Source: Glaciibacter superstes DSM 21135
Lineage (GTDB): Bacteria > Actinomycetota > Actinomycetes > Actinomycetales > Microbacteriaceae
Direction: 5' to 3'
Assembly (NCBI RefSeq): GCF_000421145.1
Contig: NZ_ATWH01000003.1
Location: forward strand, 124,001 to 188,000
DNA length: 64,000 nt
In this document: one piece after another, positions 10,582 through 17,823 of the stretch
Position numbering within the stretch: position 1 is the first letter of the stretch
How the letters are laid out: each line of letters starts with the position of its first letter
Made by a program: the position numbers and the translations under genes
The notes under the pieces: generated by a model
Databases searched by the model: none
What the model was told of the DNA's origin: nothing
Seen by the model: the letters and a program-made list of their open reading frames with translations, nothing else

Positions 10582-11661
10582 TCAGGAAGCGAGCAGCGCG
10601 TCAGCCCTCGTGCGCGCCCACTCTTCGGCGGCGGCGAGCGACTCCAGGCTGAGCGCACCCTCCTGCTCGTGCGCGTCTACCACGCGCCGCACGGTGTCGA
10701 CGATGGTGAGGAACGGGATGCGCCCGGCGTGGAAGGCGGCAACCGCCTGCTCGTTGGCGGCGTTGAAGACCGCCGGGTATGTGCCGCCGGCCCTTCCGAC
10801 CTGCTTCGCGAGCGCGACAGCCGGGAATGCAACATCGTCGAGCGGCTCGAAGGTCCATTCCTGAGGAGTGGTCCAGTCGATCGGGTTGCCGACCGCTCCG
10901 ATGCGATTCGGCCAGTCCAGCCCGAGCGAGATCGGCAGGCGCATGTCGGGCGGCGACGCCTGAGCGATGGTGGACCCGTCGATGAATTCGACCATCGAGT
11001 GCACCAGCGACTGCGGGTGCACCACCACGTCGATGCGGTCGTAATCGACGTCGAAGAGCAGGTGCGCCTCGATCACCTCGAGCCCCTTGTTCACCATGGT
11101 GGCCGAATTGGTCGTGACGACCAGCCCCATGTCCCAGGTGGGGTGCGCGAGCGCCTGCGCCGGGGTGACATCCGTCATCTGGTCACGGCTGCGCCCTCGA
11201 AACGGGCCGCCGGATGCCGTGACAACGAGGCGCCGCACTTCGCGTGGCGTACCGGAGCGCAGCGCCTGGGCGATGGCGGAGTGTTCTGAGTCGACCGGCA
11301 CGATCTGCCCGGGTGCCGCCAGGGAGGTCACGAGGTCGCCGCCGACGATCAGCGATTCCTTGTTCGCCAGAGCCAGGGTGCGGCCGGCCTTCAGCGCTGC
11401 CAACGTCGGACCAAGCCCGACAGACCCGGTGATGCCGTTCAGGACGACATCGGCTTCGACGTCTCGAACCAGTTGCTCAGCCTCTTCCGCCCCGAGCGCC
11501 GTGTGCTCAACCCCGAACCGTTCAGCCTGATCGCCCAGGAGTTCGCGGTTTCGCCCTGCGGACAGGCCGACCACGTCGAAACGCGTTGGGTTGGCCCTGA
11601 TCACGTCGAGGGCTTGTGTTCCGATGGAGCCGGTCGAGCCGAGAATAATGACTGTGCGCAC
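10582..11661 (-). CDS. dxr: 1-deoxy-D-xylulose 5-phosphate reductoisomerase
   Basis: 359 residues, slightly shorter than the usual ~385-400. It catalyses the NADPH-dependent rearrangement of DXP to methylerythritol 4-phosphate, the committed step of the MEP isoprenoid pathway. The N-terminus has the NADPH-binding [15 protein letters not shown] and V-D-S-E-H-S-A-I give the metal/substrate site; T-A-S-G-G-P-F and the H-P-T-W-D-M-G motif are present. The start is GTG at 11661, preceded by TAGCAT-N6, so the mRNA may be leaderless. Confidence 0.97.
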
Positions 11662-11673
11662 GCTCCCATGCTA
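11662..11673 (-). promoter_or_regulatory. Leaderless promoter -10 of dxr
   Basis: On the minus strand TAGCAT (11673-11668) is followed by exactly six bases and then the GTG start. This is the spacing seen before several other starts in the window and predicts transcription beginning at or next to the start codon. Confidence 0.5.
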
Positions 11674-11764
11674 GGCGCAACGACAGAACGGCCGTCGTTC
11701 ACCCGCTGTACATTGAAGCCGCGTAGGCTCCCGCGAGTCCTGCTGTCACGAGAAGATAGGCCAT

Positions 11765-14700
11765 ATGACCCCGCACGACCCCGGACTTCTCCTCGCAGGT
11801 TCGAGAGCGGCAGAGCCGCGCACCCTCGTCGACATCCTGCGCGCGAGTGCCGCGGCCGATCCGCAGGCATCCGCCTTGGCGGACACCGACGGCGCACTGA
11901 GCTATCGCGAGCTTCTTCGGCTGGTGAATTCGGCTGCAGCACAGCTCAGCCTCGCCGGTGTTCGCAGGGGCGACCGGGTGGGGATCCGAATTCCCTCTGG
12001 TACCAGGACGCTGTATATCTCGATCCTCGCCACCCTGGTCGCCGGGGCGAGCTATGTGCCCGTGGATGCAGACGATCCAGACGAACGGGCGGAGCTGGTC
12101 TTTGGAGAAGCGGATGTTGTCGGCGTGATCGGCGCAGACGGCGTATTGGTGCCACGAACCAGGGCCGATGACGGGCCGCTGGTGCAGCGGGATCCGCCCA
12201 CCAGCGGCATCCCGACGCTCGGCACTCCGACCGGCACCTTTCCCGTTGTCGACCTGCCCCGGCCAGATGACGACGCCTGGGTGATCTTCACCTCAGGGTC
12301 GACGGGCACGCCAAAGGGTGTCGCGGTCACCCACCGTTCTGCGGCGGCTTTCGTCGACGCTGAAACCCGGTTGTTCCTGACAGACGATCCGATCGGCCCT
12401 GGCGACAGGGTGCTGGCGGGCCTGTCCGTCGCCTTCGACGCTTCCTGCGAGGAGATGTGGCTCGCCTGGAGGAACGGTGCCTGCCTGGTTCCTGCACCAC
12501 GATCACTCGTCCACTCTGGAGTCGACCTCGGCCCGTGGCTGATCGCGCACGGCATCACGGTGGTCTCAACAGTCCCCACACTCGCCGGGCTGTGGCCCGT
12601 TGAATCGCTGGAACTCGTTCGACTTCTCATCTTCGGAGGCGAAGCCGTGCCGCCTGAGCTCGCCGAACGCCTTGCCGTCGAGGGGCGGGAGGTGTGGAAC
12701 ACCTACGGGCCGACAGAGGCCACCGTCGTCGCCTGCGCCGCCGTGCTCACGGGCGCGCCTCCCGTGCGCATCGGACTGCCGCTGGACGGCTGGGACCTGG
12801 CCGTCGTCGATGCGGCCGGCCAGCCGGTTGCTGAGGGCGAGGTCGGCGAGCTGATCATCGGCGGCGTCGGACTCGCCCGCTACCTCGATCCGGAGAAGGA
12901 TGCCGAGAAGTACGCGGCGATGCCGACCCTCGGCTGGGACCGCGCCTATCGATCAGGTGACCTGGTGAGGTTCGAGGCCGCTGGCCTGGTTTTCATCGGG
13001 CGCGCAGACGACCAGGTCAAACTGGGCGGCCGTCGCATCGAGCTCGGTGAGATCGACGCCGCTCTCGGTGCGCTCGCCGGGGTCGGTGGCAGCGCCGCGG
13101 TTGTGCAGACCACGCCGGCCGGAAACCAGATCCTGGTCGGGTACATCGCGCCGACCGATCCTGCCGCCGAATTCGATACGGATGCCGCGATGGTCACGCT
13201 TCGCTTGGAACTCCCCGCCGCCCTGGTGCCGCTGCTTGCCGTCGTCGACACCATTCCGACACGCACCTCTGGCAAGGTCGACAGGGCTGCCCTGCCGTGG
13301 CCGCTGCCTTCCGCAGTCGCTGCCGGCGACGCCGCCGGCCTTCGTGAAAACCTCAGTGACACCGCTGCCTGGCTCGCCGAACACTGGACCGGAATCCTCG
13401 GTTCACCGGTGACCGGCGAAGACGACGATTTCTTCGCTCACGGCGGCGGTTCGCTCACGGCTGCCCAACTCGTCTCCGCCATCCGCACCAGGTTCCCTGA
13501 CACCCGAGTCTCCGACATCTACGACCACCCGCGCATCGGGGCGCTGGCCACCGAGCTCGATTCCCGCGCCCCTGAACCGGAGCAGGAACCGCGCGTCGTC
13601 TCCCCCACACCGATGCGCACCCAAATCGTGCAGACCCTCCTCGGAATTCCGTTGCACATCCTGGTCGGTCTGCGCTGGACCGTGTACCTGCTCACAGCCA
13701 ACAATGTGCTCTCCCTGTTCACACCGGTGCCGTGGGCGCCGACCGTGCCGTGGTGGTGGATTCTGGCGGGATTTGTTCTGTTCATCACCCCGCCCGGCCG
13801 CATGGCGGTATCCGTTGTCGCGGCGCGGCTGCTCCTCGGCGGGCTGACACCCGGTGATTACCCGCGAGGCGGGAGTGTGCACCTGCGCCTCTGGCTGGCC
13901 GAACAGGTCGCGCACCTGGTCGGCGCCACCAATCTCGCCGGCGCTCCCTGGATCAGCTACTACGCGCGTGCGCTCGGAGCCCGAATCGGCCGCGGCGTCG
14001 ACCTGCATTCCCTGCCGCCGATCACCGGCATGCTCAAGATCGGAAGCGGCGCCTCGATCGAGCCTGAGGTCGATCTCGCCGGGTACTGGATCGACGGCGA
14101 CGTGCTGCGCCTCGGTTCTGTGCAGATCGGCGCAGAAGCCACCGTCGGCTCGCGCAGCACCCTCCTGCCGGGAACCAGGGTGGGCAAGGGTGCGGAGATC
14201 GCTGCGGGCTCCGCCGTGCACGGACGGGTTCCGGCCGGCCAGCTCTGGGCCGGTTCGCCCGCCGAGCGCATCGGCAAAGCCAAACACGACTGGCCCCTTG
14301 AACGCCCGCCGCAGGCTTCACACTGGCTGATTGCCTACGGTGTGGGCTCTGTTGTGCTGTCGATCCTGCCGCTGATCGCTGTCCTGGCCGCTGTACTCGT
14401 CATCTGGCCGGGCCTGTCGGCAGCGTCCACACTGGGTGAAGCTGCGCTCCACGCCCTCATTTGGCTCCCCCTGGCGGTGGCGGCCGGCGGTGTGCTGTAC
14501 GCGCTGCTCGTTGTGGCGTCCGTTCGCCTGCTGGGCATCGGCATCCGCCCAGGCCAGTACCCGGTTCGCAGCCGCATCGGCTGGCAGGTCTGGGCAACGG
14601 AGCGCCTGCTCGATTCCGCCCGCACGGTGCTCTTCCCGTTCTACGCCAGCCTGTTCACCCCGGTCTGGCTCCGGCTGCTCGGGGCGAAGGTCGGCAAGGG

Positions 14701-15727
14701 TGTCGAAGCGTCCACTGTGCTGCTGCTCCCCTCGATGACCACGATCGGCGACTACGCCTTCCTCGCAGACGACACCATGATCGGCTCGTATGAGCTTGGT
14801 CACGGGTGGCTGCGCATCGACGAGGCGAAGGTCGGGCGGCGAGCGTTCCTTGGCAACTCCGGAATGACCGGGCCGGGCCGGTCGGTGCCGAAGAACGGCC
14901 TGGTCGCGGTACTCTCCGCCACACCGCGCAAGGCGAAGTCCGGCTCGTCGTGGCTCGGAAATCCTCCGGTGCGCCTCCGCAGGGCGGTCGCGGAGTTCGA
15001 CGAAACCCGAACCTTCAAGCCTCCGATCAGGCTCAAAGCAGCCCGGTTGCTCTGGGAACTGTGCCGGTTCGTTCCCGTTGTCGTCACCGCCGCCATCGGC
15101 CTCGGCGTTCTGGTCTGCCTGCAGTGGATGATCGGCGCCTGGGGGGTCGGCTGGGCGATCGCCGCCTCCGGGATCGTCCTTCTCGCGGCGGGCGCAGTGG
15201 CCGCGGGTGCGACGACCGTGATGAAGTGGACGCTGGTCGGGCGGATCGCGGTGCGCGAGCATCCGCTGTGGTCGTCGTTCGTCTGGCGAAACGAGGTATC
15301 GGATGCCTTCGTCGAGCTGGTTGCAGCGCCCTGGTTCGCCGTAGCCGCGACCGGCACACCCGCCCTCGCCTGGTGGCTGCGTTCCCTCGGCGCCCGAATC
15401 GGTCGCGGAGTGTGGAGCGAGTCATACTGGCTTCCCGAAGCCGACCTGATCACGCTCGGCGACGGCGCAACAGTGAACCGGGGCTCTGTCGTGCAGACCC
15501 ATCTGTTCCACGACCGGGTCATGCAACTCGACACCGTTGAGCTGGCAGCGGGCGGAACGCTCGGCCCGCACAGCGTCATCCTTCCGGCAGCGGCCATCGG
15601 TGCGGGCGCCAGCGTCGGCCCGGCGTCGCTGGTGATGCGCGGAGAGGTGGTGCCCCCTTCGAGCCGGTGGGCAGGAAACCCGATTGCGCCGTGGAAGCAC
15701 GAACCGTGGAATACAGTGGCGAGGTGA
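11765..15727 (+). CDS. Pls/PosA-family nonribosomal peptide synthetase (poly-amino-acid synthetase type)
   Basis: A 1320-residue membrane synthetase. Residues about 20-525 are an adenylation domain: F-T-S-G-S-T-G-T-P-K-G near 175, F-D-A-S-C-E near 224, Y-G-P-T-E at 314 and the terminal R-T-S-G-K-V-D-R. A carrier domain follows with phosphopantetheine Ser563 in G-G-G-S-L. Then come six hydrophobic segments in three pairs (about 620-695, 855-930, 1095-1160), each leading into a left-handed beta-helix acyltransferase-like domain. This A-T-six TM-triple tandem layout is that of epsilon-poly-L-lysine synthetase and relatives, which activate one amino acid and link copies without a thioesterase. 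By-eye pocket residues (D-A-E-S-I-G-T-V-V-K) include an acidic residue, compatible with a basic amino acid; the substrate is not proven. Overlaps the next gene by 4 bases. Confidence 0.9.
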   Translation: MTPHDPGLLLAGSRAAEPRTLVDILRASAAADPQASALADTDGALSYRELLRLVNSAAAQLSLAGVRRGDRVGIRIPSGTRTLYISILATLVAGASYVPVDADDPDERAELVFGEADVVGVIGADGVLVPRTRADDGPLVQRDPPTSGIPTLGTPTGTFPVVDLPRPDDDAWVIFTSGSTGTPKGVAVTHRSAAAFVDAETRLFLTDDPIGPGDRVLAGLSVAFDASCEEMWLAWRNGACLVPAPRSLVHSGVDLGPWLIAHGITVVSTVPTLAGLWPVESLELVRLLIFGGEAVPPELAERLAVEGREVWNTYGPTEATVVACAAVLTGAPPVRIGLPLDGWDLAVVDAAGQPVAEGEVGELIIGGVGLARYLDPEKDAEKYAAMPTLGWDRAYRSGDLVRFEAAGLVFIGRADDQVKLGGRRIELGEIDAALGALAGVGGSAAVVQTTPAGNQILVGYIAPTDPAAEFDTDAAMVTLRLELPAALVPLLAVVDTIPTRTSGKVDRAALPWPLPSAVAAGDAAGLRENLSDTAAWLAEHWTGILGSPVTGEDDDFFAHGGGSLTAAQLVSAIRTRFPDTRVSDIYDHPRIGALATELDSRAPEPEQEPRVVSPTPMRTQIVQTLLGIPLHILVGLRWTVYLLTANNVLSLFTPVPWAPTVPWWWILAGFVLFITPPGRMAVSVVAARLLLGGLTPGDYPRGGSVHLRLWLAEQVAHLVGATNLAGAPWISYYARALGARIGRGVDLHSLPPITGMLKIGSGASIEPEVDLAGYWIDGDVLRLGSVQIGAEATVGSRSTLLPGTRVGKGAEIAAGSAVHGRVPAGQLWAGSPAERIGKAKHDWPLERPPQASHWLIAYGVGSVVLSILPLIAVLAAVLVIWPGLSAASTLGEAALHALIWLPLAVAAGGVLYALLVVASVRLLGIGIRPGQYPVRSRIGWQVWATERLLDSARTVLFPFYASLFTPVWLRLLGAKVGKGVEASTVLLLPSMTTIGDYAFLADDTMIGSYELGHGWLRIDEAKVGRRAFLGNSGMTGPGRSVPKNGLVAVLSATPRKAKSGSSWLGNPPVRLRRAVAEFDETRTFKPPIRLKAARLLWELCRFVPVVVTAAIGLGVLVCLQWMIGAWGVGWAIAASGIVLLAAGAVAAGATTVMKWTLVGRIAVREHPLWSSFVWRNEVSDAFVELVAAPWFAVAATGTPALAWWLRSLGARIGRGVWSESYWLPEADLITLGDGATVNRGSVVQTHLFHDRVMQLDTVELAAGGTLGPHSVILPAAAIGAGASVGPASLVMRGEVVPPSSRWAGNPIAPWKHEPWNTVAR

Positions 15728-17067
15728 AGGCACGCGATCTCATCCCCGAATCCGGTGGAGCGAGTGCCGGCGATGACTATCTCCCCGGCAGTGGGAACAG
15801 CGGGTATTCGGTGTCGCACTACGCGCTCGAACTCGACTACCGGATGGCGAGCAACCGACTCACCGGCACGGCCGTCATCACCGCGACCGCGTCGCAGCCG
15901 CTCGGTCGGTTCAGCCTCGATCTCACCGGGCTGGTTGCAAGCAAGGTTTCCGTCGACGGGGTGCGGGTGGCGAAAGTAGTCCAGAATACGCAGAAACTCA
16001 CGATCACCCCCGCCAGGCCGATCGAAGCCGGCGCGTCGTTCATCGTCTCGGTGCGGTACGGCGGCTCCCCCGGTCCGCGAAGAAGCCGGTGGGGAGAGGT
16101 CGGCTGGGAGGAACTCGCGGAGGGTGTCATCGTCGCCGGTCAGCCGTGCGGGGCGCCCACCTGGTTTCCCTGCAACGATCATCCTGGCGACAAGGCCACC
16201 ATGCAGCTCGCGATGACCACCGATTCCCCCTACCGAGTTGTCGCCAACGGCACGCTGGTGTCGCGCACGGTGAGGTCGAGCCGAACCCGTTGGGTCTTCG
16301 AGACCACTGAGCCGATGGCCACCTATCTCGCGACAGTGCAGATCGGTTATTACCAGTCGTATGCCCTGCCGCCGGCGCGGATTCCGCAGTATGCGTACAT
16401 CCCAGAGGATCTCGCCGCCGACTTCGGCGCCGACTTCGGCGGCCAGTCGGCGATGATCGAGGTCTTTGAGAAGCTGTTCGGCGAGTTCCCGTTCAGCGAG
16501 TACACCGTGGTGGTGACGGATGACGACCTCGAGATTCCGCTTGAGGCGCACGGTCTGTCTGTCTTCGGTCGCAACCACGTCGACGGGCACCAGGGCGAGG
16601 TGCGACTGATCGCGCATGAGCTCGCCCACTCGTGGTTCGGCAACAGCCTCACGGCGGCATCCTGGAAGCACATCTGGCTGCATGAAGGGTTCGCCTGCTA
16701 CGCCGAGTGGCTGTGGTCTGAGGCGTCTGGTTCGACGAGCGCCGCGCATCTGGCCGAGCACCACTGGACACGGCTGAATGCACTCCCCCAGGACTTCGCG
16801 ATTGGCGACCCGGGCCCGGATCTCATGTTCGACGACCGGCTATACAAACGAGGTGCACTCACCCTGCACGCGCTCAGGGTGACGATCCGCGACGAGGCGT
16901 TCTTCGAGTTGCTGAGAAAGTGGACATTCGAGCACCGCCATGGTTCGGTGACCACCGAGCAGTTCCTTGCCCATGTCAGCGAGTCATCCGACCGGCCAAC
17001 CGGTCCCCTGCTCGCGGCGTGGCTGTTCGACACCGCGCTGCCCAAATTGCCGCCCAGACGTCGGTAA
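15724..17067 (+). CDS. M1-family zinc metallopeptidase with altered exopeptidase motif
   Basis: About 447 residues from GTG 15724, which overlaps the synthetase stop (GTGA); other GTG codons upstream in frame cannot be excluded. The zinc site is H298-E-L-A-H302 with the third ligand Glu321 exactly 18 residues on. The usual G-A-M-E-N substrate motif aligns with I-P-L-E-A, keeping only the Glu (274). The C-terminal helical domain of long M1 enzymes is absent. No signal peptide is visible. In epsilon-poly-lysine producers a zinc aminopeptidase that degrades the polymer is known; the overlap with the synthetase here suggests a similar trimming, self-protection or recycling role (inference). Confidence 0.85.
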   Translation: MKARDLIPESGGASAGDDYLPGSGNSGYSVSHYALELDYRMASNRLTGTAVITATASQPLGRFSLDLTGLVASKVSVDGVRVAKVVQNTQKLTITPARPIEAGASFIVSVRYGGSPGPRRSRWGEVGWEELAEGVIVAGQPCGAPTWFPCNDHPGDKATMQLAMTTDSPYRVVANGTLVSRTVRSSRTRWVFETTEPMATYLATVQIGYYQSYALPPARIPQYAYIPEDLAADFGADFGGQSAMIEVFEKLFGEFPFSEYTVVVTDDDLEIPLEAHGLSVFGRNHVDGHQGEVRLIAHELAHSWFGNSLTAASWKHIWLHEGFACYAEWLWSEASGSTSAAHLAEHHWTRLNALPQDFAIGDPGPDLMFDDRLYKRGALTLHALRVTIRDEAFFELLRKWTFEHRHGSVTTEQFLAHVSESSDRPTGPLLAAWLFDTALPKLPPRRR

Positions 17068-17118
17068 CACTGCCGTCGGTGACACTGCCGTCGGTGACAC
17101 TGCCGTCGGTGACACTGC
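17059..17118. repeat. 15-bp tandem repeat spanning the M1 peptidase stop codon
   Basis: Four copies of cgtcggtgacactgc (17059, 17074, 17089, 17104; the first reads gtaaca). The peptidase TAA stop (17065-17067) lies inside the first copy, where a single base differs from the other copies (gtaaca instead of gtgaca). The array fills the 54-base gap to the convergent phosphopantetheinyl transferase. Confidence 0.9.
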
Positions 17119-17121
17119 CGA

Positions 17122-17823
17122 TCACACGGTCGTGATTCGGATGCGGTACGGCCCCGCATCGAGGATGGCAAGTGCTCCGACGATCCCGCGTGGGAGGTCG
17201 AGCATTTCGATCTGCGGCGGCTGGTCAAGCTGCAACGCGACAGGCCACCTGACGAGTCGTACAACTTCGCTGTTCGCGTGCGCAGCGAAGGTGACGGCCA
17301 GTTCGGCCGGATCAATGTTCAGCCCCCAGCCAGTGGCCTTCAGTATCGCCTCCTTGACGGTCCAGAGCCTGGCAAGTCGGTCGTTCCTGGCTCCTTCGGG
17401 CAGAACGTCCAACGCGGCTTGTTCCAGCGGATGCAGGAGCGCGGCGGCCAGGGGCGCCTTGGCGACGAGGTCTGGGTGTTCGATGTCGAGGCCGATCGGG
17501 CCGGCTCTCGTGCCCCCCACCGCAACCCCCACGGCGACCAAGCCGGACGTCCGGCTGAGGCTCGTGTGAACTCCAGCACCGGATTCGACGCCGTCGGCGG
17601 TCATGATCCTGACCGACGGCTTGCCGTGTTCCTGGCTGCCGCACCGCAGACAGCGGCGAACGATCTTCACCGCGGCCGGGTCGCAGCCGGTCGCCACGGC
17701 GACGGCTTCGGCGAGCGCAGTCTCACCATCGGCAGGGCCGGCCGTCAGAACGATCAGAATGTCACCTGGCACCTGCCCATCATGCCTGCTTCGTATGCCG
17801 CGGCTGACATGCCGCCTGAACAT
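17122..17823 (-). CDS. Sfp-type 4'-phosphopantetheinyl transferase
   Basis: 233 residues, the usual size of the Sfp class. It transfers phosphopantetheine from CoA to carrier-protein serines. Motifs: C-G-S-Q-E-H-G-K-P (P1 region), T-S-L-S-R-T-S-G (usually H-N-x-S-H-S; here diverged), P-I-G-L-D-I-E-H with the Mg-binding acidic pair, and R-L-W-T-V-K-E-A-I-L-K-A-T-G. The ATG at 17823 lacks a clear ribosome site; a GTG at 17772 just before the conserved part is an alternative. It converges on the synthetase operon, the only carrier-domain enzyme in the window, so it is the natural activator of Ser563. Confidence 0.85.
   Translation of the reverse strand: MFRRHVSRGIRSRHDGQVPGDILIVLTAGPADGETALAEAVAVATGCDPAAVKIVRRCLRCGSQEHGKPSVRIMTADGVESGAGVHTSLSRTSGLVAVGVAVGGTRAGPIGLDIEHPDLVAKAPLAAALLHPLEQAALDVLPEGARNDRLARLWTVKEAILKATGWGLNIDPAELAVTFAAHANSEVVRLVRWPVALQLDQPPQIEMLDLPRGIVGALAILDAGPYRIRITTV

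Follow-up and report, generated by a model that had tools for sequence, protein, structure and literature searches.

A probable epsilon-poly-L-lysine locus in Glaciibacter superstes: a Pls-type synthetase overlapped by a leaderless M1 peptidase

Comparison with characterised relatives makes it very probable that the synthetase encoded in this Glaciibacter superstes locus makes epsilon-poly-L-lysine. The overlapping gene encodes an M1 metallopeptidase that is predicted to break this polymer down. Directly observed are the order of the genes, the layout of the domains, the identity of the pocket and the conservation of the pls-M1 pair. The locus belongs to a known kind of system, not a new one, and is a well-formed example of it. 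It lies in a window of 64,000 nucleotides, the whole stretch of DNA that was analysed, and comprises the following features.

11765..15727, plus strand: pls-like gene, encoding an A-T-membrane-domain synthetase of the Pls/PosA family (1320 aa)
11840..13294, plus strand: adenylation (A) domain, with pocket residues D225, A226, E229, S268, I289, G291, T313, V321, V322 and K504
13370..13552, plus strand: carrier (thiolation, T) domain, Pfam PP-binding, with the predicted attachment serine S563 at 13451-13453
13628..15685, plus strand: membrane polymerisation domain, TIGR02353 match
15724..17067, plus strand: pldII-like gene, encoding a two-domain M1 metallopeptidase (447 aa, GTG start; Pfam M1 and M1_N)
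16615..16686, plus strand: zinc site HELAH-X18-E (H298 to E321), read from the sequence
17122..17823, minus strand: Sfp-type 4'-phosphopantetheinyl transferase gene (233 aa; Pfam ACPS at 48.3 bits, cut-off 25)

The M1 gene starts within the synthetase gene, with the four bases GTGA common to its GTG start at 15724 and to the pls stop, and the Sfp-type gene converges on it from 54 bases beyond its stop. The coordinates, frames, gene order, four-base overlap and convergent transferase given by an earlier sequence-only reading were all confirmed on the sequence. A 15-base unit, GTCGGTGACACTGCC, repeated about four times, fills the stretch from the M1 stop to the end of the Sfp gene (17062-17121). 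Upstream, a divergent gene named dxr from its sequence (10582-11661, minus strand) is separated from pls by 103 bases (11662-11764), and because the gap is of this size the two genes may have a common promoter region.

The neighbourhood was compared across the named loci, which are the best 80 of 581 and therefore lean to close relatives. Counting matches at 45% identity or more in the flanks retrieved for these loci (best 80 of 581), a dxr-like neighbour occurs in 3/80, rseP in 3/80, a plsC-like gene in 1/80, gabT in 3/80 and a kinase in none of the 80; dxr and rseP were named by reading the sequences, plsC-like and gabT by profile matches. A wider conserved cluster was rejected on these counts. 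Recent lateral import was also rejected, as a quick tree of 52 rows, with SH-aLRT support only, places the window within Microbacteriaceae, beside Compostimonas (support of 86 for this pair and 100 for a set of seven).

The synthetase matches TIGR02353, 'Pls/PosA family', at 757 bits (cut-off 423.1) over residues 622-1307, which corresponds to model positions 2-695 of 695. Pfam places an AMP-binding domain at residues 26-372 and a carrier at 536-596; at E ≤ 0.001 it gives AMP-binding, PP-binding and hexapeptide matches only, with neither a condensation nor a thioesterase domain. The column of S563 holds serine in 200 of 201 aligned rows and a gap in the remaining one. These rows are the window, PDB 7wew, the 80 named loci (best 80 of 581) and 119 homologues (best 120 of 7996 candidates).

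Epsilon-poly-L-lysine is in use as a food preservative, and the A domain of a synthetase that makes it has been solved (7wew). Aligned with this structure, the window's A domain is identical in 318 of 471 columns, and phmmer scores 625 bits to it vs 196 to PosA (8g95). The pocket positions, assigned from core motifs, read DAESIGTVVK, which agrees with 7wew at 10/10 positions in the alignment; the code earlier picked out by eye was therefore correct. The same code stands in 199 of the 201 aligned rows, with V for I in two. Agreement with 7wew at all ten pocket positions makes epsilon-poly-L-lysine the likely product of the synthetase, although a pocket code is a predictor of substrate only. As described in PMC10522769, code position 2 is Ala in lysine enzymes, Met in ornithine enzymes and Phe where the product is PDAP or PDAB, and the published codes of PosA (DMEHNGTVSK) and of an epsilon-poly-beta-lysine enzyme (DGESISVVNK) differ from that of the window. 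A polymer of ornithine, diaminobutyrate or beta-lysine was ruled out as first choice, since the published pockets differ. The same source describes pocket codes as degenerate, and other pockets occur in family members, in Microbacteriaceae too, where two copies carry DFECLSVVTK; even so, a synthetase of this family with a different basic substrate (ornithine, diaminobutyrate, diaminopropionate or beta-lysine) is highly improbable beside the full pocket identity with 7wew and the differing codes. Comparison with characterised Pls and PosA enzymes thus bears out the family and the basic substrate proposed earlier, and narrows the product from a 'cationic or related homo-oligomer' to epsilon-poly-L-lysine.

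The remainder of the synthetase forms the polymerisation domain. In an AlphaFold model of residues 605-1320 (mean pLDDT 77, pTM 0.81, 34 rows), three pairs of long helices lie at about 617-652/663-690, 853-886/890-923 and 1102-1126/1128-1158, with beta-helix strands following each pair. In other words, the model contains six TM helices in three pairs together with three beta-helix (C1-C3) blocks, of which blocks 1 and 3 are weak, with many ten-residue pLDDT means of 50-60. Plain hydropathy does not single out helix pair 1, whose peaks (1.63 and 1.59) are lower than one of the peaks in the A domain (1.84). The model agrees with the one described for PosA (PMC10522769), and the expected A-T-six TM-three C-terminal domain layout is confirmed by Pfam, TIGR02353 and the structure model. 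Plain acetyltransferases fused to an A domain, the case that the sequence-only reading had named against itself, were ruled out: the Pls/PosA match is full-length, and among solved structures the closest folds, for the most part hexapeptide acetyltransferases, reach a best E of 4.8e-4 and a query TM of 0.07-0.17 among the 50 matches listed.

The model of the overlapping peptidase has a two-domain M1 fold (pLDDT 91), and its whole fold is common with the Deinococcus radiodurans M1 metallopeptidase PDB 6a8z (query TM 0.88, 30% identity). The 32 aligned M1 rows show no variation at E274, H298, E299, H302, E321 and Y374, and HEXXH-X18-E is present in 79/79 neighbouring M1 peptidases of the named loci (best 80 of 581). 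The window's M1 has both the zinc motif and the adjacency to pls expected of a degrading partner.

The pairing of the two genes is consistent. Among 199 genomes sampled from Microbacteriaceae, the family indicated by the window's named relatives, the synthetase occurs in 80, and these are also the genomes with an M1 at E ≤ 1e-60; the 119 that lack the synthetase have none. The M1 lies directly downstream of pls on the same strand in 80/80, with 32-161 bases between the matched ends; some of these M1 matches are interrupted by a stop codon and could be broken copies or extend past the gene start. The pls-peptidase gene pair is already known and is common in Microbacteriaceae. In a phylum-wide draw, a TIGR02353 match at E ≤ 1e-100 was found in 10 of 198 genomes, one of them the genome that contains the window. 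Among the named loci (best 80 of 581), an M1 gene was found in 79, the exception (L049) ending 1.3 kb after pls. It lies within 100 bases of the pls stop except in five of the 79 (L059, L065, L068, L069 and L070, at 298-2107 bases), and a start with a four-base overlap is possible in 37/79 (best 80 of 581).

Departures from this arrangement exist as well. Three extra TIGR02353 copies in one Microbacteriaceae genus are without such an M1, which is therefore not a constant requirement of the domain; two of the three were read, and both carry DFECLSVVTK, which is not lysine-type by the Phe rule. Second Pls/PosA-family synthetases with this pocket, 29% identical to that of the window, are located at 3109-7329 of L120 and 4680-8921 of L121 (one Microbacteriaceae genus), with no M1 partner; the 12-15 kb stretches that contain them also include an Sfp-type gene. 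In two Streptomyces-like genomes (L034 and L035), a protein of about 850 aa combines a carrier-like start with TIGR02353 and has no A domain in frame; as stand-alone carrier-plus-polymerisation enzymes, these would need a separate loading enzyme.

The M1 protein could alternatively be a general aminopeptidase merely carried on the pls message and inactive on the polymer. Its nearest structure, the Deinococcus enzyme, was crystallised with ordinary amino acids and a tripeptide, and the available literature text yielded no published assay of a coryneform partner. This alternative is nonetheless unlikely, given the strict co-occurrence and adjacency with pls, the absence of M1 from both DFE-pocket copies read, and the description of S. 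albulus PldII, encoded at the same position, as an epsilon-PL-degrading enzyme (PMC8117764; PMC9223678). The polymer-degrading zinc peptidase partner proposed by the earlier reading is accordingly borne out by sequence comparison as the probable role. The suggestion that the enzyme also trims the product is weaker. Trimming is contested in S. albulus, where a review states that inactivation of Pld and PldII left chain length unaffected (PMC8506220) and a knock-down is reported to have changed the length distribution (PMC9223678); moreover, the window's M1 has no recognisable export signal.

The localisation of the peptidase was addressed by a screen that combines hydropathy with an arginine-pair pattern, and is not a trained predictor, on start codons set by rule. 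The window's M1 has no arginine-pair leader and no hydrophobic stretch, its 13-residue hydropathy peak being -0.14. The arginine pattern is absent from the M1 of all 79 named loci (best 80 of 581), and hydropathy exceeds 1.2 in 2/79, namely L046 (1.22) and L068 (2.01, with a doubtful start); in 13 of the 80 leaderless rows, where the conserved block was not found, the score covers the first 20 residues only. For comparison, 392 genomes of a Streptomyces-like genus gave seven A domains matching 7wew at E ≤ 1e-240, of which five (87-94% identity) were read and two (80%) left out. PldII of these S. albulus-type loci has an N-terminal arginine pair and a hydrophobic stretch in 5/5 (hydropathy peak 1.63-1.92), which together resemble a twin-arginine leader. 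A second pls group in the same genus has three partner peptidases that are also leaderless (0.18-0.45), and no peptidase was found in the 5-kb locus of its fourth member.

By this simple screen the absence of a leader predicts a cytoplasmic M1 in the window. PldII activity, on the other hand, is reported at the cell surface (PMC9205021). Having no recognisable export signal, the window's M1, unlike PldII, would not reach secreted polymer, and it is therefore called PldII-like here and not PldII. The leaderless peptidase is the one unsettled feature of an otherwise well-formed known system.

The third gene is recognised as Sfp-type because its product has the size of an Sfp enzyme and an ACPS match above cut-off. 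Three genes of the genome encode an ACPS domain: that of the window, a 131-aa frame on contig 10 and an Sfp-sized frame on contig 13. The last of these is followed, about 2 kb on, by an adenylation domain truncated where contig 13 ends. The start of contig 15 likewise truncates an adenylation domain, and this contig holds two more full ones and a further start; these contig ends, with the Sfp-sized gene, are possibly one NRPS cluster split between contigs.

An Sfp-type gene stands near pls in 33 of the 80 named loci (best 80 of 581), with families assigned from genus names as follows: Microbacteriaceae 19/23, Micrococcaceae 13/14, other Micrococcales 1/1 and all others 0/42. The true counts may be higher, because these transferases are only about 30-49% identical among themselves. 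One locus counted as lacking the gene (L073) extends just 1.9 kb beyond pls. The neighbour has the opposite orientation to pls in 30 of the 33 loci (best 80 of 581), where it begins no more than 3 kb past the pls stop. Among the 80 Microbacteriaceae pls genomes, a match to the window's Sfp is convergent within 1.5 kb of the M1 end in 45, elsewhere in 10 (three of these, from one genus, just upstream of pls on the same strand) and lacking at E ≤ 1e-5 in 25.

These distributions bear on whether the transferase serves the synthetase or is a mere neighbour that serves other carrier proteins. The second possibility has some weight but is the less likely one. It would fit the loci outside Micrococcales, where no Sfp is within reach in any of the 42 (best 80 of 581), the 25 pls genomes without a match, and four Microbacteriaceae genomes that have a match and no pls. 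It fits poorly with the 33 of 38 Micrococcales loci with the gene near pls (best 80 of 581), with the presence of pls in 55 of the 59 Microbacteriaceae genomes that have a match, 45 of them in the convergent arrangement, and with the fact that the contig 13 gene near the adenylation domain has little similarity to that of the window (best E 0.011). The available literature text, PMC8117764 included, was found to mention no transferase next to pls, which is not proof that the arrangement is unpublished.

The following course of events would be expected from the families involved. An Sfp-type transferase, likely the neighbouring one, would add phosphopantetheine to S563. The A domain would activate L-lysine and load it onto the carrier, and the membrane domain would form one bond after another between the lysyl carboxylate and an epsilon-amine, either of lysine or of the chain being built. 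The M1 enzyme, which is likely made from the pls message, would hydrolyse the polymer. Without a leader, it would do so inside the cell and not at its surface, in self-protection or in recycling of unexported polymer.

If such operons work, epsilon-polylysine would be a very widespread actinobacterial polymer and not a Streptomyces speciality, as a lysine-coded pls with its own peptidase, often with an adjoining transferase, is present in 80 of the 199 sampled Microbacteriaceae genomes. A more speculative proposal, and probably not the right one, is that the pls partner is cytoplasmic outside the S. albulus-type group, so that most actinobacterial pls operons, the window's included, would run an internal make-and-break cycle of epsilon-polylysine (self-immunity or a lysine/nitrogen reserve), and surface degradation by exported PldII would be the speciality of that Streptomyces group. 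Comparison of the leaderless and exported kinds makes the purpose of the pls partner, whether self-protection, trimming or recycling, testable.

Among known systems, antiSMASH NAPAA clusters are listed in Subtercola and Herbiconiux, also Microbacteriaceae (PMC9287328, PMC10303725, PMC10011130); the available text of these papers gives them without analysis of substrate, peptidase or localisation. PosA, the delta-poly-L-ornithine synthetase of Acinetobacter, has its family and membrane-domain architecture in common with the window's enzyme but differs in its pocket and in its single-gene operon (PMC10522769), and its A domain is much more distant than that of 7wew.

In coryneforms a pls-peptidase operon has been published, with Microbacterium and Arthrobacter among the genera listed (PMC8117764). 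The Corynebacterium variabile operon, compared by its description, has the A-T-six TM-three C layout and a peptidase gene, as in the window. Its gene, expressed in S. coelicolor, gave a product proven to be epsilon-PL, and C. variabile itself had no detectable epsilon-PL in culture (PMC8117764). The word 'phosphopantetheinyl' is absent from the main text of that paper. The identity of the window synthetase to five Streptomyces Pls proteins (54-55%) is higher than that given for the C. variabile enzyme (51%; PMC8117764).

The S. albulus pls-pldII pair, for which a 4-nt overlap is published (PMC4361855), has domain layout, pocket (10/10), gene order and this overlap in common with the window, and the overlap recurs in 5/5 S. 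albulus-type loci. The peptidase is 41-44% identical to the five S. albulus-type proteins and lacks their twin-arginine-like leader, so a PldII role at the same place is not assured. The five S. albulus-type 8-kb stretches hold no match to the window's Sfp at E ≤ 1e-4. Overall, the analysis makes two additions to the known system: an Sfp-type neighbour in Micrococcales loci and an M1 peptidase without the S. albulus-type leader.
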